Assembly: GCA_013043965.1 (NCBI GenBank)
Contig: JABEVF010000155.1
Coordinates: 1-32,632, forward strand
Direction of reading: 5' to 3'
DNA from: Gallionella sp.
Lineage (GTDB): Bacteria; Pseudomonadota; Gammaproteobacteria; Burkholderiales; Gallionellaceae
DNA: 32,632 nt
In this document: piece by piece, positions 5,997-30,929 of the stretch
Layout of the letters: each line of letters begins with the position of its first letter
Position numbering within the stretch: the stretch's first letter is position 1
Made by a program: the position numbers and the translations under genes
Notes under the pieces: model-generated
Told to the model about the DNA's origin: nothing
What the model saw: the letters and a program-made list of their open reading frames with translations, nothing else
The model's database searches: none

Positions 5997-8858
5997 ATGC
6001 AGCAAGCCGCTACCGATAGCGTTTCATCCTCTCCAATACAGACCAAGAACATGTCCGATTCCATTATTACCTCCGCTGCGCCTTCCGCTCAATTCGACCA
6101 ATACAAAGTGATACGCCGCAATGGTGCGGTAGTGCCGTTCGAGCCATCCAAGATCGCAGTCGCCCTGACCAAGGCATTCATTGCGGTGGGCGGTGGTCAC
6201 GGTGCGGCCTCGGCGCGCGTGCGCGAGATGGTCGAGCTGCTGACTTCGGGTGTGGTGAGTGCCATGCTGCGTCGCATGCCGCACGGCGGCACGATGCATA
6301 TCGAAGATATCCAGGATCAGGTCGAGCTGGGTCTGATGCGTTCGGGTGAGCATGACGTGGCCCGCGCTTACGTGTTGTATCGCGAGGAGCGTTCCCGCTC
6401 CCGCGTGAAGTCAAAGAACTTTGAGCCGGTGCATGTCATCAATGTAAAGCATGCCGACGGTTCGCTGCACCCGCTGGATCTGGACCGCCTGTCGTCGCTG
6501 GTGCAGTCCGCCTGTGTGGGCTTGGGCGATGCGGTGAATGCCGATGTGGTCATTAAATCGACGCTCAAAGATCTGTACGACGGCGTGCCCCAGCATGAGG
6601 TGGGCAAGTGCCTGATCTTGTCGGCTCGTTCCCTGATCGAGAAGGAGCCGGCTTACGATTTTGTGACGGCCCGTTTGCTGCTGAATAGTTTTTGCAGCGA
6701 GGTGCTGGATGAAGATGTGGCGCAAGCGGATATGTCCACACGTTATGCCGAGTACTTCCCGAAATTCATCAAGCAAGGGATAGCCGCCGATTTGCTGGAT
6801 GCGCGTTTGGCGCAATTCGACTTGCAGCGTCTGGGCAAGGAGCTGGACGCGCAACGCGATTTGCAGTTCGGCTATCTGGGTTTGCAAACTTTGTATGACC
6901 GCTATTTTTTGCACATCAGCGAAAAGCGTATCGAGCTGCCGCAGGCGTTCTTCATGCGCGTCGCGATGGGTTTGGCGTTGAGCGAGATCGACAGGGAAGC
7001 GCGCGCGGTGGAATTCTATCGCCTGCTGTCCAGTTTTGATTTCATGAGCTCCACGCCGACCCTGTTTAATTCCGGCACGCAGCGTTCGCAATTGTCCTCC
7101 TGCTACCTGACCACGGTGGCGGACGATCTGGACGGCATCTACGAAGCTATCAAGGAAAACGCGCTGCTTGCGAAATATGCGGGCGGCCTGGGTAACGACT
7201 GGACGCCGGTGCGCGCGCTGGGCGCGCATATCAAGGGAACCAACGGGCAGTCGCAGGGCGTGGTGCCGTTTCTGAAGGTGGTGAACGATACGGCCGTGGC
7301 GGTGAACCAGGGAGGCAAGCGCAAGGGCGCGGTGTGCGCCTACCTGGAAACCTGGCATCTGGATATCGAGGAATTCCTGGATCTGCGCAAGAACACCGGC
7401 GATGACCGCCGCCGCACCCACGATATGAACACCGCGAACTGGATCCCAGACCTGTTCATGAAGCGCGTCATGGAAGGCGGCGAATGGACCTTGTTTTCGC
7501 CGAATGACACGCTCGACCTGCACGATAAGTTCGGCGCGGACTTCGAGCGCGCTTACTCGGGTTATGAGGCCAAAGCGGCCAACGGCGAGCTGAAATTGTT
7601 CAAAAAGGTCCAGGCCGCAGGGCTATGGCGCAAGATGCTCACCATGTTGTTCGAGACCGGCCATCCGTGGATCACCTTCAAGGACCCGTGCAACATCCGT
7701 TCGCCGCAGCAACACGTCGGCGTGGTGCACAGCTCCAATCTGTGCACCGAGATCACACTCAATACCAATGAAAACGAGATCGCGGTATGCAATCTGGGCT
7801 CGGTGAATCTGGCGGCGCATTTGTATCCGCGCGGGCATGAGAAGTTCGGCCAGCTGGATCACGAAAAGCTGCGTCGCACCATCAACACCGCGATGCGCAT
7901 GCTGGACAACGTCATCGACATCAATTATTACGCGGTGGCCAAGGCGCGCAATTCCAACCTCAAGCACCGTCCGGTGGGGCTGGGCATCATGGGTTTTCAG
8001 GATTGCCTGCACGAATTGCGCATCCCTTATGCTTCGGCCGCGGCGGTGGAATTCGCCGACCGTTCCATGGAGGCCGTGTGCTATTTCGCATACTGGGCAT
8101 CCACCGAATTGGCCGAACAGCGCGGCCGCTACGCGAGCTATCGCGGCAGCCTGTGGGATCGGGGCATCCTGCCCCAGGACACGCTGGATATGTTGCGCGC
8201 CGAGCGCGGCGGCTATGTGGAAGTGGATACCTCGGTGAGCATGGATTGGGATGCCTTGCGCGCCAGAATCAAGCAGTTTGGCATGCGCAACTCCAATTGC
8301 GTGGCCATCGCGCCGACCGCGACCATCTCAAACATCATCGGCGTGTCGGCATGTATCGAACCGACTTACCAGAATATTTTCGTGAAATCGAACCTGTCCG
8401 GCGAGTTCACCGTGATCAACGAGCATCTGGTACGCGACCTCAAGCAGCTCGGCCTGTGGGACGAGGTGATGATCGCCGACCTGAAGTATTTTGACGGGAC
8501 GCTGGCAAAAATCGACCGCATCCCCGCCGAGCTGCGTACTTTGTACGCCACCGCGTTCGAGGTTGAGCCGAGCTGGCTGATCGAGGCGGCTTCGCGTCGC
8601 CAGAAGTGGATAGACCAGGCGCAGTCGCTGAATATCTATATGGCGGGTGTGTCGGGCCGCAAGCTCGATGAGACGTACAAGCTGGCCTGGCTGCGCGGTT
8701 TGAAAACCACCTACTACCTGCGTACTTTGGGGGCGACCTCGGCGGAAAAATCGACCGGCAAGGCGGGTGCGTTGAATGCCGTACCGACGACCGGCGGCGT
8801 AGTGGAAGAAACCCAGTTCTGCTCGATTGACAATCCTGAGTGCGAAGCATGTCAGTGA
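5997..8858 (+). CDS. nrdA: Class Ia ribonucleoside-diphosphate reductase, alpha subunit
   Basis: This 953-residue NrdA reduces NDPs to dNDPs with the NrdB radical subunit. Two ATP-cone domains lie in tandem (about 35-130 and 146-235), longer than the single cone of the E. coli enzyme. Catalytic residues are in place: redox pair Cys369 (SSCYL) and Cys598 (AVCNLGS), thiyl Cys583 in NLCTEITL with Asn581 and Glu585, radical-transfer tyrosines 906-907 (TTYYLRT), and the swinging C-terminal pair Cys949/Cys952 in CEACQ. AGGGAG about 6 nt upstream supports ATG 5997; an in-frame ATG at 6051 is less likely. The TGA stop is followed by C, a leaky context, and the frame stays open for 37 more codons to a second NPECEACQ tail (8946-8972). 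Confidence 0.97.
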   Translation: MQQAATDSVSSSPIQTKNMSDSIITSAAPSAQFDQYKVIRRNGAVVPFEPSKIAVALTKAFIAVGGGHGAASARVREMVELLTSGVVSAMLRRMPHGGTMHIEDIQDQVELGLMRSGEHDVARAYVLYREERSRSRVKSKNFEPVHVINVKHADGSLHPLDLDRLSSLVQSACVGLGDAVNADVVIKSTLKDLYDGVPQHEVGKCLILSARSLIEKEPAYDFVTARLLLNSFCSEVLDEDVAQADMSTRYAEYFPKFIKQGIAADLLDARLAQFDLQRLGKELDAQRDLQFGYLGLQTLYDRYFLHISEKRIELPQAFFMRVAMGLALSEIDREARAVEFYRLLSSFDFMSSTPTLFNSGTQRSQLSSCYLTTVADDLDGIYEAIKENALLAKYAGGLGNDWTPVRALGAHIKGTNGQSQGVVPFLKVVNDTAVAVNQGGKRKGAVCAYLETWHLDIEEFLDLRKNTGDDRRRTHDMNTANWIPDLFMKRVMEGGEWTLFSPNDTLDLHDKFGADFERAYSGYEAKAANGELKLFKKVQAAGLWRKMLTMLFETGHPWITFKDPCNIRSPQQHVGVVHSSNLCTEITLNTNENEIAVCNLGSVNLAAHLYPRGHEKFGQLDHEKLRRTINTAMRMLDNVIDINYYAVAKARNSNLKHRPVGLGIMGFQDCLHELRIPYASAAAVEFADRSMEAVCYFAYWASTELAEQRGRYASYRGSLWDRGILPQDTLDMLRAERGGYVEVDTSVSMDWDALRARIKQFGMRNSNCVAIAPTATISNIIGVSACIEPTYQNIFVKSNLSGEFTVINEHLVRDLKQLGLWDEVMIADLKYFDGTLAKIDRIPAELRTLYATAFEVEPSWLIEAASRRQKWIDQAQSLNIYMAGVSGRKLDETYKLAWLRGLKTTYYLRTLGATSAEKSTGKAGALNAVPTTGGVVEETQFCSIDNPECEACQ

Positions 8859-8972
8859 CATGCTCGCGTTCATGTTCATGATTACGGCGTAGGCTCATGT
8901 GAGCATAGCGAACGTGAAGCCCGCATCGCGGGTGGCCGTAGCCACAACCCCGAATGTGAGGCTTGCCAGTAG
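8859..8972 (+). other. In-frame extension with a second copy of the NrdA C-terminal tail
   Basis: After the nrdA TGA (8856-8858) the same frame continues for 37 sense codons and ends in NPECEACQ followed by TAG (8946-8972). The eight residues are identical to the real NrdA C-terminus. Seven of the eight codons differ, every time at the third base, and the stop differs too (TGA versus TAG). This pattern means the copy was under protein-level selection, here or in a donor. The codons between show no similarity to NrdA. An imperfect hairpin (arms 8859-8880 and 8896-8916) starts one base after the TGA. Stop readthrough, or a remnant of another nrdA, are both possible. Confidence 0.6.
8920..8950 (+). 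repeat. Overlapping GC-rich hairpins in the nrdA-nrdB spacer
   Basis: CCCGC (8920-8924) pairs with GCGGG (8928-8932) around a 3-nt loop. Overlapping it, GTGGC (8932-8936) pairs with GCCAC (8941-8945) around CGTA, so the two stems are partly mutually exclusive. They lie immediately before the second NrdA tail. The TGGCCGTA core recurs in the spacer after nrdB (10327-10334). Confidence 0.5.
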
Positions 8973-9020
8973 GCCCGGTTTGATGCACAAGGAAACGGAA
9001 AAAAACGCAAGGGTCCTGTC

Positions 9021-9050
9021 AAAAAATTGCCGCCCAAGGGCTGGTTTTTT
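9021..9050 (+). terminator. Possible attenuator/terminator between nrdA and nrdB
   Basis: A short GCCC/GGGC stem (9032-9035 / 9038-9041), extended by CC/GG, is flanked by A6 on the left (9021-9026) and T6 on the right (9045-9050). It resembles a weak, possibly bidirectional, intrinsic terminator. The loop is very tight (2 nt unless the inner pair opens), so efficiency is doubtful. It could lower nrdB relative to nrdA. Confidence 0.35.
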
Positions 9051-9098
9051 GAATGAAAAATCAGCAGTGATGCCCAGCAGAAAAAAGGAGAAAAAAAT

Positions 9099-10265
9099 AT
9101 GTTGACTTTTGACGAAGAAATTAAACCTAACGCTCAAGCTTTAGGTATGATGCGCACATCGACGTTTGACGATGTTCCAGGAATGCAACCACAACAGGCG
9201 AGAGTGACAGCAAGCAGCGTTCCACCGACACCCGCAAAGACAGTGTCTACCGGACGTATTCGCGTCGAGGATAAACGCATCATCAATTGCAACGCCGACG
9301 TGAATCAGCTGGTCCCGTTCAAGTACAAGTGGGCGTGGGAAAAATATTTAGCCGCTTGCGCCAATCACTGGATGCCGCAAGAAGTGAATATGACCGCAGA
9401 CATCGCGTTGTGGAAAAGCAATAAACTGACAGACGATGAGCGTTTGTTGATCAAGCGCAACCTCGGCTTCTTCAGTACCGCTGATAGTCTGGCTGCCAAC
9501 AATATCGTGCTTGGCACCTACCGCCACATCAGCAATCCAGAATGCCGCCAATATTTGCTGCGCCAGGCTTTCGAGGAGGCGATACACACGCACGCCTACC
9601 AATACATCGTCGAAAGCCTGGGCTTGGATGACGGCGAAATTTTCAATATGTATCACGAAGTGGAAAGCATACGCGCCAAAGACGAGTTCCTGCTTCCCTT
9701 CATCGATGTGCTGACCAACCCCGAATTCAAGACCGGCACGCCGCAAGCCGACCAGGCTTTGCTGCGCAGTCTGATCGTGTTCGCCTGCATCATGGAAGGT
9801 CTGTTCTTTTATGTGGGTTTTGTGCAGATTCTTGCACTGGGTCGGCAAAATAAAATGACAGGCGCTGCGGAGCAGTATCAATACATCCTGCGCGACGAGT
9901 CCATGCATCTGAATTTCGGTGTGGATGTCATCAATCAAATCAAGATGGAAAACCCCCATCTGTGGACAGCGGAATTTCGTGAAGAGATACGTGGCCTGAT
10001 GCAAAAAGGCGTTGAGTTGGAATATGCTTACGCCGAAGACACGATGCCGCGCGGCGTGCTGGGCCTGAATGCGACCATGTTCAAAGAGTATCTGCGCTTT
10101 ATCGCCAACCGCCGCTGCCAGCAGATCGGTGTCGATATTCTGTATCCGGGTGCGACCAATCCATTTCCATGGATGGCTGAGATGATAGACCTTAAAAAAG
10201 AAAAGAACTTCTTCGAGACCCGCGTCACGGAATATCAAACCGGCGGAGCGTTGTCGTGGGATTGA
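9099..10265 (+). CDS. nrdB: Class Ia ribonucleoside-diphosphate reductase, beta subunit
   Basis: The 388-residue radical-generating subunit carries the di-iron ligands Asp101, Glu160, His163, Glu233, Glu267 and His270 (motifs [28 protein letters not shown]). The radical tyrosine, Tyr167, is at the position of E. coli Tyr122, so this is a standard tyrosyl-radical class Ia enzyme. The C-terminus [14 protein letters not shown] is the tail that docks on NrdA. A strong AAGGAG box precedes ATG 9099. The first 55 residues form a low-complexity extension. The 240-nt gap from nrdA is long for subunits of one enzyme and contains the second NrdA tail and a possible attenuator. Confidence 0.97.
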
Positions 10266-10572
10266 GAACAGGAGCTATCTCGGTGTCAACCAACATGCGC
10301 AGCATGTTAAGGGCGGCTTTCCCGTCTGGCCGTAACCAAAATAACTTCTTAGAGTTCGCGTCACGGAATACCAAATGGGTAGTGCATGGTCATGAGATTA
10401 GATAGATGAATTTTACTCCGCGTCATCGGATGTTGGACTGGTGGCGTTTGATTCTGGAGGTCGGCAGGATCAGGGGGTGCTGGCTTTAGGTCGTGCTTGA
10501 GGCTGAGCGCGGGCTGGGGGTGTAGTCGTCGTAGGTGTTGTATTTTTAACTTTCATTGTGAAGGAGAACGAA
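10266..10572 (+). other. Spacer after nrdB with hairpins and a degraded copy of the nrdB 3' end
   Basis: No gene is seen in this stretch. It holds a perfect hairpin AACATGC-GCA-GCATGTT (10292-10308), then GGCGGCTTTCCC and TGGCCGTAACCA (10327-10338), then a second nrdB tail at 10343-10395. The rest, to the ribosome-binding site AAGGAG at 10561-10566 of the next gene, shows nothing further. Its order (hairpin, TGGCCGTA motif, tail copy) mirrors the spacer after nrdA. Confidence 0.55.
10343..10395 (+). pseudogene. Frameshifted fragment of the nrdB 3' end
   Basis: This segment aligns with the last 60 nt of nrdB (10206-10265): AACTTCTT then GAG, then an almost unbroken match around CGCGTCACGGAATA and CAAA. 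One base is missing after GAG. If it is restored, the reading is NFLE-x-RVTEYQMGSAWS-stop, against [19 protein letters not shown] in NrdB. The frameshift and amino-acid changes indicate a decayed, untranslated remnant. Confidence 0.65.
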
Positions 10573-11067
10573 ATGGCAGCAGTAAAGAAAACTAAACCAG
10601 CAGCAAAGAAGGCCGTGCCAGCAAAAAAACCGGCAGCCAAAAAAGCGGTCGCAGCGAAGAAGCCAGTCGCCAAGAAAGCCGTCGCGGCCAAAAAACCGGC
10701 AGCCAAAAAAGCGGTCGCAGCGAAGAAGCCAGCAGCCAAAAAAGCGGTAGCGGCGAAGAAGCCAGTCGCCAAGAAAGCCGTCGCGGCCAAAAAACCGGCA
10801 GCCAAAAAAACGGTAGCGGCGAAGAAGCCAGTCGCCAAGAAAGCCGTCGCGGCCAAAAAACCGGCAGCCAAAAAAGTGGTCGCAGCGAAGAAGCCAGCAG
10901 CTAAAAAAGCGGTAGCGAAGAAGCCGATCGCAAAACCGATGGCAGCTAAACCGGCGGCTCCTGCTGCTGTCGTTAGCAAACCTGCGCCGGCTCCTTCTGC
11001 ACCGGCACCTGTCCGTCCAGCTGCTTCTTGGCCTTTTCCTACACCTGGAATCGGTAAGCCGAACTGA
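10573..11067 (+). CDS. Histone H1-like lysine/alanine-repeat DNA-binding protein
   Basis: A 164-residue, extremely basic protein consists mostly of about ten-residue units of the type AAKKAVAAKKP, followed by a Pro/Ala-rich C-terminus. Such repeats resemble the C-terminal tail of eukaryotic histone H1 and are found in bacterial HctB/AlgP-like proteins, which bind DNA without sequence specificity and compact the nucleoid. ATG 10573 is chosen because AAGGAG (10561-10566) sits 6 nt upstream; GTG 10558 lies before that site. No folded domain is visible, so the specific role (nucleoid structure or regulation) is inferred from composition. A terminator follows at 11136. Confidence 0.85.
   Translation: MAAVKKTKPAAKKAVPAKKPAAKKAVAAKKPVAKKAVAAKKPAAKKAVAAKKPAAKKAVAAKKPVAKKAVAAKKPAAKKTVAAKKPVAKKAVAAKKPAAKKVVAAKKPAAKKAVAKKPIAKPMAAKPAAPAAVVSKPAPAPSAPAPVRPAASWPFPTPGIGKPN
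10615..10920 (+). repeat. Tandem ~30-bp coding repeats in the H1-like gene
   Basis: Units of about 30 bp, grouped in near-identical 60-90-bp blocks (for example the sequence around AAGAAAGCCGTCGCGGCC and around AAACCGGCAGCCAAAAAA), repeat roughly ten times. High identity between blocks makes copy-number change by slippage likely. Confidence 0.8.
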
Positions 11068-29522: not shown

Positions 29523-30929
29523 TCATTTGGTGAATTCCAGATACTCGGCTATCGAGATCGAAACCGGTTTGGAATCGATTTCTCGCGTAAGCGCACGCGC
29601 GGCTTCTATCTTGGATGCGGACATTTTGGCGGCAAGTTTGTCTCGGTTGGACGCGGCGGTATTGTTGCCGGACGCATCCGTCTTCGCAGAGAGATTGAAC
29701 AGTGCATACGCTATGACGCTATCCTGCGTCACGCCCTGTCCGTTGGCATACATGATCCCCAGATTGTCCTGCGCGGCCGCATTACCCTGATCCGCTGCCT
29801 TGCTGATCCACATATCCGCTTGGCCGTAATCCTGCGCTACGCCTTGGCCTTTGATGTACAGAAGCCCCAGGTTGGATTGCGCGGCAGCATAACCCTGGTC
29901 TGCCGCTTTGCGATACCACAGGGCCGCCTGCGCGTAATCCTGCGCCACGCCCTGCCCGTTGGCGTACATGGCACCCAAATTGGACTGCGCGGCAGCGAAT
30001 CCCTGGTCCGCCGCCTTGCGATACCACAGCACCGCCTGCGTATCATCTCGCGGCACGCCTTCGCCTTTGGCGTACATGGCACCCAAATTGGATTGCGCTT
30101 CCGCATTACCCTGATGCGCCGCTTTGCCGATCCACAGGGCCGCCTGCGCGTAATCTTGGCTCACACCTTGGCCTCTGGCGTACATGGCACCCAAGTTGGA
30201 CTGCGCTTCCGCATTACCCTGATACGCGGCCTTGCGATACCACAGGGCCGCCTGCGCGTAATCCCGCGCCACGCCCTGCCCGTTGGCGTACATGATTCCC
30301 AAGTTGTATTGCGCTTCCGCGTACCACTGATCCGCGGCCCTGCTGATCCATTGATAGGCCTGCTTATCATCCCGCGCTACGCCTTGGCCTTTGATGTACA
30401 TGAGCCCCAGGTTGGACTGCGCGGCAGCAAACCCTTGGTCCGCCGCCTTGCGATACCACAGCACCGCTTGCGCATCATCCTGAGCCACGCCTTTGCCGAT
30501 GGTGTACATGACACCCAGGTTGTATTGCGCGTCAGGGTGACCCTGGTCTGCCGCCTTGCGATACCACTGCGCCGCCTGCGCGTCATCCTGAGCCACGCCT
30601 TTGCCGATGGCGCACATAAGCCCCAAGACGTACTGTGCGGCCGGATATCCCTGGTCTGCCGCCTTGCGATACCACTGCGCCGCTTGCGCGTCATCCTGAG
30701 CCACACCTTGACCGTTGGCGTACATGACACCCAATGTGTACTGCGCTATCACATCGCCGGATTCCGCAGCTTGTTGCAGCTGTTCCGGATAAAGGGCGTC
30801 TGCTCGAGAGGCCTGGTCGGCCGATTGCCTGATCTGTGCTTCATCGATTGTGAACGCCTGCGCTGCAAGCGAAACCAGCATCGTGGCTACAGCAACTGTG
30901 AATATTGAAATTGGTTTTTTGATATTCAA
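29523..30929 (-). CDS. Exported Sel1-repeat protein (ten repeats)
   Basis: A 468-residue protein with a signal peptide (hydrophobic IFTVAVATMLVSLAAQA, cleavage about residue 25) and ten consecutive 36-residue Sel1-like repeats from about residue 55 to 414. The pattern is ADQGxxxAQxNLGxMYxxGxGVxxDxxQAxxWYRKA. Sel1 repeats form alpha-helical solenoids used for protein-protein contact; bacterial members often act in envelope processes or signalling. The start is TTG 30929, preceded by GGGAG at 7 nt; no ATG fits the signal peptide. The C-terminal 54 residues are polar and lie outside the repeats. Partners and role cannot be told from the sequence. Confidence 0.88.
   Translation of the reverse strand: MNIKKPISIFTVAVATMLVSLAAQAFTIDEAQIRQSADQASRADALYPEQLQQAAESGDVIAQYTLGVMYANGQGVAQDDAQAAQWYRKAADQGYPAAQYVLGLMCAIGKGVAQDDAQAAQWYRKAADQGHPDAQYNLGVMYTIGKGVAQDDAQAVLWYRKAADQGFAAAQSNLGLMYIKGQGVARDDKQAYQWISRAADQWYAEAQYNLGIMYANGQGVARDYAQAALWYRKAAYQGNAEAQSNLGAMYARGQGVSQDYAQAALWIGKAAHQGNAEAQSNLGAMYAKGEGVPRDDTQAVLWYRKAADQGFAAAQSNLGAMYANGQGVAQDYAQAALWYRKAADQGYAAAQSNLGLLYIKGQGVAQDYGQADMWISKAADQGNAAAQDNLGIMYANGQGVTQDSVIAYALFNLSAKTDASGNNTAASNRDKLAAKMSASKIEAARALTREIDSKPVSISIAEYLEFTK
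29688..30767 (-). repeat. Ten 108-bp tandem repeats within the Sel1 gene
   Basis: Each 36-codon unit is 108 bp long. Several share long identical runs, for example around CTTGCGATACCACAGGGCCG and ACGCCCTGCCCGTTGGCGTA on the + strand, so homogenisation or copy-number change by recombination is likely. Confidence 0.85.

Follow-up and report, generated by a model that had tools for sequence, protein, structure and literature searches.

In the stretch of Gallionella sp. DNA analysed here (GenBank assembly GCA_013043965.1, contig JABEVF010000155.1, all 32,632 nucleotides (nt) of which we call the window), the ribonucleotide reductase gene nrdA is followed by a second, synonymously recoded copy of its own C-terminal tail. 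This second tail is probably one end of a small, gene-free repeat inserted in the nrdA 3' end. The unit consists of a gene tail with its stop codon (T1), an inverted copy of the start of that tail (T'), a structured core and a second tail (T2). It recurs at many housekeeping gene ends, and its core keeps a three-way-junction fold. We consider it likely that the unit belongs to a non-autonomous mobile element, similar to repetitive extragenic palindromic (REP) sequences, that inserts at the ends of genes and brings a recoded end along, as the prophage e14 does in icd.

Two NrdA tails and a structured repeat

The nrdA product ends in NPECEACQ, followed by TGA. Past this stop, the nrdA frame runs through 29 open codons and then reads NPECEACQ-TAG (8946-8972), which makes 37 sense codons up to the second stop. 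The initial annotation had reported this recoded tail from the sequence of the window, and our analysis confirms it. T1 reads AAT CCT GAG TGC GAA GCA TGT CAG and T2 reads AAC CCC GAA TGT GAG GCT TGC CAG; seven of the eight codons are changed, all seven differences are at third positions, and none falls on the 16 first and second positions. By simple arithmetic, the chance that seven differences among 24 positions all land on third positions is 8/346,104, or 2.3e-5. When the tail and its stop were back-translated and both strands of the window were searched, the only two matches were T1 and T2 themselves.

The imperfect hairpin that had been noted directly after the nrdA stop corresponds to T', the inverted tail copy, followed by the core. 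The feature is larger than the stretch first marked: it comprises T1, T', core and T2 at nrdA and a second, decayed element after nrdB. A covariance model of the core, R1, matches at 8882-8947 with 54.4 bits (E 1.2e-14 in a search of the window), and the T1:T' stem of this copy pairs at 6/8. The parts of the nrdA copy are as follows (here and below, a slash within a junction motif marks the junction).

5997..8858, + strand: nrdA, class I ribonucleotide reductase alpha subunit, complete (family model NF005544, 1750 bits; cut-off 965)
8831..8858, + strand: T1 of nrdA, the tail from the GA/CAA junction to the stop, in the nrdA frame (from the sequence, with the junction rule taken from many sites)
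8859..8884, + strand: nrdA spacer and T', an inverted imperfect copy of T1 that ends in TTA and can pair with T1
8885..8944, + strand: nrdA core, a conserved structured repeat that ends in GCCA (covariance model R1)
8945..8972, + strand: T2 of nrdA, the second NrdA tail with its own stop TAG (7 synonymous and 0 non-synonymous differences from T1)

The same unit at other gene ends

The order seen at nrdA, namely a gene reading up to GA, T1 with its stop, T' as the reverse complement of the T1 start, a core that ends in CCA, and T2, is present at 84 of 148 distinct core sites and at one of 566 decoy positions. In this test, T' had to be complementary to the upstream T1 at 8 or more of 10 positions, and a direct repeat had to follow the core at 12 or more of 20. 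The 84 sites comprise 65 gene 3' ends, 6 gene 5' ends and 13 inner array units, by which we mean sites directly after the end of another core. From the start of T1 to the start of T2, the unit spans 91-206 nt and holds no gene, as measured at 68 sites where T2 is at least 60% identical over the tail, a filter that favours well-kept copies. T1 is 19-76 nt long and usually differs from T2.

The junctions are regular. An earlier filter had given 149 sites, 122 of them with an upstream frame and 83 with a stem of at least 6/8. In this stem-filtered set, GA stands directly before T1 at 81 of the 83 sites, AAA or CAA follows GA at 78 (including two CACAA cases), and the core ends in CCA at 78 and in CTA at 5. 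GA precedes T1 at 69 of 84 sites under the filter that keeps inner array units, and at 64 of 75 when the position of T1 is taken solely from the direct repeat. The left junction is mostly GA/[AC]AA and the right junction CCA/[AC]AA.

Occupied genes include nrdA, nrdB, ftsW, glmS, proB, argF, smpB, metK, dapD and dnaJ, as well as some gene starts. Family models identified ftsW, argF, glmS, metK, dapD, dnaJ, proB and galU; Pfam identified smpB and genes for a Dps-like ferritin, a thiolase, an AMP-binding enzyme and an MraY-like transferase. For a VWA-domain gene at L169 (L and G numbers are our handles for loci and genomes), Pfam gave no match at E<=1e-10, and the name was assigned just by eye. 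Copies at gene starts lie antisense and are accompanied by a duplicate of the start region (L293 at galU, L378 at a thiolase gene, and L178, L316 and L324 at murG). Among the six 5'-end sites that passed the test, four look sound (three murG, one thiolase) and two, L375 and L393, look like chance frames. Tandem arrays occur in G056 (L397), with a period of about 145 bp, and in G238, with periods of 99-117 bp, of which L398 shows 107-117 bp. At L156, L204, L220 and L249, the element appears by eye to be located within or next to tRNA genes, surrounded by repeated tRNA sequence; the tRNA was confirmed only in L156.

Fold of the core and distribution of the element

The 38 cores of alignment A1, each about 60 nt long, fit a three-way junction of two hairpins and an outer stem, the stem being interrupted by a C.A mismatch and a GNA/GNA internal loop. 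Over 22 pairs in these cores, 97.4% of 831 cells are paired, and 91 cells are changed on both sides, compared with 23.5 in shuffles. GNAG stands two nt before hairpin 1 in all 38 cores (GAAG in 19, GCAG in 9, GTAG in 7 and GGAG in 3).

Within the family, a consensus core (about 60 nt, with some tail attached) yields a BLAST match at E<=0.001 in 95 of 158 genomes, and many of the matching loci are not nrdA. R1 matches at E<=1e-7 in 86 of 300 genomes of the order, which belong to 43 of 134 genera; we take this order to be Burkholderiales, given that we take the family as Gallionellaceae and given the GTDB taxonomy. Across the phylum, 9 of 398 genomes have a match, eight of them within the order and one within the class. 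The exact core is found in 35 named stretches, 21 of which are labelled Gallionella, Sideroxydans, Ferriphaselus, Ferrigenium or Gallionellaceae/Gallionellales and 14 of which carry other or broader labels. Similar gene ends, those of metK, proB, ftsW, glmS, nrdA and dapD, recur in other families of the order. A search of plasmids with one core gave no match, and searches of viral contigs gave 0 and 2 stretches. Two IMG/VR contigs (L417, 7348-7627, and L418, 701-2664) hold two cores each in opposite orientations; they are possible vectors, or host DNA called viral.

Presence at a given gene is scattered. Among 99 distinct nrdA tails, drawn from the family and several genomes of the same order, 26 are followed by T' and the start of a core (two of these, L117 and L125, are doubtful) and 73 are empty. 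No element was found at nrdA in G101, G086 and G036, whose NrdA is 95-96% identical over the C-terminal 352 residues.

The strong covariation of the core, and its usual sense orientation after a gene, would suit a conserved cis-acting RNA element, such as a terminator, a processing site or an mRNA-end structure, that does not move. We regard this as very improbable. The 26 occupied and 73 empty nrdA tails argue against it, as do the tandem arrays and the antisense copies at some gene 5' ends (the weak galU copy, murG and the thiolase gene). Rfam adds no support for an RNA of this kind: in 16 loci only tRNAs passed the gathering threshold, and a looser search of window positions 8600-9200 and of L369 1380-1720 produced one weak, unrelated match in each, far below gathering.

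Reading frame and stops in relatives

The initial annotation had offered programmed or leaky readthrough of the nrdA TGA, which would yield some long NrdA with two redox tails. The 37-codon open frame of the window favours this model, and the TGA-C context was called leaky in that annotation. Comparison with relatives points the other way. A tail-plus-stop pattern searched in 61 genomes matched in 26, and closely spaced double tails were found in five, at spacings of 114 nt (G000), 83 nt (G002), 82 nt (G011), 82 nt (G027) and 108 nt (G059); three of the five, those 82, 82 and 83 nt apart, are out of frame. A script located T2 at 13 of the 26 occupied nrdA sites, seven of them in frame, and missed T2 copies seen by eye in L014, L018, L019 and L029. 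Five in-frame nrdA cases have a whole second tail, namely L005 (this genome), L071, L109, L139 and L020 (from another family), and stops stand between the tails in all but that of the window. Over many genes, T2 is in frame with T1 at just 11 of the 68 sites, and the same anatomy is present at genes that have no such redox tail and at gene starts.

The comparison of nrdA 3' regions that had been proposed turned out against a long NrdA: the second tail is absent from three close relatives and is elsewhere often out of frame or interrupted by stops. A frame that is kept and stays open across relatives, as a readthrough extension would show, was not found. We give readthrough almost no credence. 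We also found no support for a separate short tail peptide, a further suggestion of the initial annotation, and both models are set aside on frame and stops. Its remaining model, a diverged nrdA 3' end left behind by gene replacement, is close in outcome to the reading we favour. The agent, however, is not simple gene replacement, because a dispersed structured repeat acts alike at ftsW, glmS, proB, argF, nrdB, smpB, metK and other genes.

T1 and T2 as probable former gene ends

T1 and T2 were probably both functional gene ends at one time, because the differences between them are mostly synonymous. Over the 68 sites, 343 codons differ synonymously and 73 non-synonymously; by codon position, 360 differences are at third, 130 at first and 37 at second positions. 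The synonymous share of 0.825 compares with 0.225 under random change, where the maximum in 300 runs was 0.286. The site sets behind these counts are not independent: they contain related genomes and array copies, and the T1:T' stem and T1-T2 identity had both served as filters in choosing them. Neither a mere decaying duplicate nor a conserved readthrough product would give a pattern that is mostly synonymous and loses the frame. Working ends from different lineages, later set side by side, would fit it. Some T2 copies do decay, as at the nrdB copy in the window, which has a one-base deletion. We considered the second tail as an ordinary decaying duplicate and disfavour this candidate on the mostly synonymous differences.

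A related explanation is insertion with a long target duplication of about 20-75 bp, in which T1 and T2 would be equal at insertion and the survivors would be those that span a gene end. Such a process accounts for the location of the sites at gene ends, both 3' and some 5', and for the identity of T1 and T2 over the tail in L226, L221, one L397 copy and G027. The first three of these count against an element that brings its own recoded end, as plain duplication would also produce such equality. After a duplication, however, T2 should decay regardless of codons, which does not fit a synonymous share of 0.825 where 0.225 is expected, and we judge this explanation improbable.

Which copy may have come with the element

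T2 is probably the native copy, and T1 would then be the copy carried by the element. We lean towards this polarity chiefly because no other leaves both copies functional until insertion. The pairing arm is consistent with this polarity. Where T1 and T2 differ, T' matches T1 in 154 cases and T2 in 57 at 75 sites chosen without a stem filter, and the counts are 160 and 16 in the set filtered for the T1:T' stem. Because the test is less one-sided without the stem filter, it slightly lowers the odds that T1 was the one carried. At the 22 ftsW sites, once upstream divergence is allowed for, similarity in the unpaired half of T1 goes with that of the element, taken as spacer plus core (partial r 0.36, p 0.005). 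T2 similarity at these sites does not go with the element (r -0.09, p 0.73) but with the upstream gene (r 0.57).

Several observations weigh against this assignment or against the element reading as a whole. The link between T1 and the element at ftsW is weaker with a slightly different comparison window (r 0.31, p 0.020), has p 0.054 with the Gly codon masked and is gone with the core alone (r 0.04, p 0.37); it does not reach significance at the 8 nrdA sites or the 6 glmS sites. At four occupied ftsW sites, T1 and the tail of an empty relative are the same over 33 nt, while the upstream 144 nt are only 86-94% identical, and T1 could be native there. The nearest empty sites resemble T1 more in 9 of 14 short-spacer sites and T2 more in 7 of 11 long-spacer sites; 55 sites were counted as empty, of which six later passed the T' test and were reclassed, one of them (L352) doubtful. 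Synonymous codon identity is about 0.4 in all pair classes, and because synonymous sites are thus saturated, the pair statistics carry no polarity. Of the 148 core sites, 64 fail the anatomy test, and no transposase is linked to the element, the mobility of which is read from sequence. A GGT codon marks T1 of the long-spacer ftsW sites (7 of 11, versus 1 of 55 empty sites); this may mean no more than that the codon was freed from the ribosome-binding site of murG.

Some of these results would suit the same mobile repeat with opposite polarity, in which T1 is native and a unit of spacer, T', core and T2 was inserted after the stop, with T2 derived from another lineage. The four ftsW T1 copies equal to the tail of an empty relative speak for this version, as do the short-spacer sites at which T1 is nearer than T2 to the closest empty sites. 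Moreover, the identity of T1 with the empty relative stops a few nt past the stop codon in the pairs L202/L361 and L338/L311. Yet a donor T2 of this kind would already have been untranslated, so that its amino-acid conservation (343 synonymous against 73 non-synonymous changes) would go unexplained. T' also fits T1 over T2 with and without the stem filter, and it is T1, not T2, that tracks the element at ftsW. We consider opposite polarity unlikely, although of the rivals discussed here it is the one we take most seriously.

The nrdB copy and other elements in this genome

By family models, nrdA and nrdB of the window are ordinary ribonucleotide reductase genes. A second, decayed element lies after nrdB, at 10202-10402, and both adjoining subunit genes are occupied. 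Its parts are as follows.

9099..10265, + strand: nrdB, ribonucleotide reductase beta subunit (family model NF005550, 691 bits; cut-off 309)
10202..10265, + strand: T1 of nrdB, the tail from the GA/AAA junction to TGA
10266..10280, + strand: decayed T' of the nrdB copy (from the sequence, by eye)
10281..10338, + strand: core of the nrdB copy (R1 match 10278-10341, 31.8 bits, E 1.4e-7)
10339..10402, + strand: decayed T2 of the nrdB copy (by alignment; the one-base deletion is relative to T1)

Besides these two strong copies, R1 has two weak matches in the window (E 0.014 and 0.94). In the whole genome, 14 matches reach E<=0.1, and nine of these reach E<=1e-5. Detailed reading places eight of the 14 at ftsW, argF, glmS, nrdA, dps, smpB, nrdB and the start of galU, where the copy is weak and antisense. 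The family became visible because a consensus core, and then the covariance model, was used in place of the single element of the window. With BLAST, that element matched only itself in this genome at significance, the next matches being at E 0.18 and worse, and a short sequence pattern gave no signal, with 14 matches against 31 for a backward control.

Elsewhere in the window, an open reading frame at 10558-11067 is made of AAKKxxAKK-type repeats and has, by eye, a histone H1-like look. A protein encoded at 29523-30929 on the - strand has many repeats that by eye resemble the Sel1 type.

Candidate enzymes and known systems

We looked for the core near two classes of transposase gene, single-tyrosine (Y1) transposases and REP-associated tyrosine transposases (RAYTs); the 30 Y1 loci and 38 distinct RAYT loci read are part of all matches in those searches. 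At the 30 Y1 loci, a regular expression found no core and R1 gave one weak match (E 0.2). None of the 20 best RAYT loci had a core, and among 18 further RAYT loci cores were present in L439 only, the nearest at a proB end. Genome G056, which has 17 R1 matches, has no match to the RAYT model NF047646. Across 300 genomes, the element is present in 39 of the 78 with a strong RAYT match, which are 78 of the 85 genomes above the cut-off, and in 47 of 222 others. This co-occurrence may be due to relatedness.

The closest parallel in arrangement is e14. According to two published reports, e14 in icd of E. coli K-12 leaves the displaced original end as icdC, a 165-bp stretch with 12 nt exchanges, of which two conservative changes of amino acid result (PMC11148124); the prophage e14 measures 15 kb, and the prophage Rac enters the 5' end of ttcA (PMC6379469). 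Like e14, the present element has two synonymously different gene ends as direct repeats, and it may likewise have entered at a specific site in the gene end, bringing a recoded end and leaving the displaced one beyond it; like the e14/Rac pair, it is found at both 3' and 5' gene ends. Unlike e14, which on that account measures 15 kb and has one site, it is 91-206 nt long, gene-free and present at many genes, with gene-specific arms. The unit holds no integrase of the e14 type, and 91-206 nt is too short for such a gene.

In the core, resemblance is to REP sequences, which the cited portion of one paper describes as a palindrome preceded by a conserved tetranucleotide, with cleavage at CT or CA (PMC8266576). 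As in the REP/TnpA-REP (RAYT) systems, REPtrons and bacterial interspersed mosaic elements (BIMEs) of that description, a GNAG precedes a palindrome, copies are many and may form arrays, and the right end lies after CA. The tetranucleotide itself fits in part: all 38 cores have GNAG, but only seven have GTAG. Unlike REP, the element lies inside coding ends, carries gene tails and folds as a three-way junction. A RAYT gene is also commonly flanked by the repeats of REP systems; here, 1 of the 38 distinct RAYT loci has cores nearby.

The same portion of that paper describes 4-nt guide sequences of IS200/IS605 elements that lie 5' of a hairpin and pair with the cleavage site (PMC8266576). The element is similar to this description in that sequence 5' of a hairpin can pair with the target flank, and differs from it in that T' is about 10-25 nt long (by eye) and gene-specific, with no TnpA (Y1) gene in the unit. 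Miniature inverted-repeat transposable elements (MITEs) and the RU-1 and RU-2 repeats, short repeats found intragenically in enterobacteria in the cited part of another study (PMC2759123), are, as pictured there, likewise short, non-autonomous and palindromic. Unlike MITEs, the element lacks terminal inverted repeats of its own as well as a short, exact duplication of the target; its arms are copies of the host gene. Integron attC sites have the outer boxes RYYYAAC and GTTRRRY; the core ends in alignment A1 read by eye as TT[K]CGG and CCA[M]AA and do not match these boxes. We found no description of the family in the open-licence literature, a scope that excludes most subscription papers and all preprints. 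This Burkholderiales-centred family appears to join known parts, a REP-like motif and an e14-like gene-end arrangement, in a new combination.

Discussion

Our data suggest the following course of events for the non-autonomous element that we favour. The element would enter at a GA/[AC]AA close to the end of a gene, a position at which breakage would normally do harm. The entering unit would comprise T1, T' and the core, and its ready-made recoded end would keep the gene working. The previous gene end would be displaced downstream as T2, where it would be untranslated and then decay, as the nrdB copy may illustrate. Repeated entry at one gene end would build the observed arrays of T1-T'-core-T2-T'-core-T3. 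Judging from the fold of the core and from the GNAG motif close to hairpin 1, a trans-acting enzyme may handle the element as single-stranded DNA, with T' able to pair with the target. Our best guess is that an enzyme of the histidine-hydrophobic-histidine (HUH) class moves it.

A more specific version of this proposal is one that we hold only tentatively. These may be gene-free homing elements of Burkholderiales, of the order of 100 nt, in which pairing by T' would find the allelic site in an essential gene. The element would insert at GA/[AC]AA, rescue the gene with its own recoded end and spread between species as gene-specific lineages (those at nrdA, ftsW, glmS, proB and metK among them) with a common core.

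Most known small repeats of bacteria lie between genes, and the family described here lies inside the ends of housekeeping genes, where the sequence beside the element records how the gene stayed alive. With many copies, defined ends, a target motif and a gene-specific arm, this family makes the movement of REP-like repeats testable. If our reading is true, nature would here offer an example of self-rescue through recoding by an element that has no gene of its own, and the family could explain odd duplicated protein tails in many genomes.

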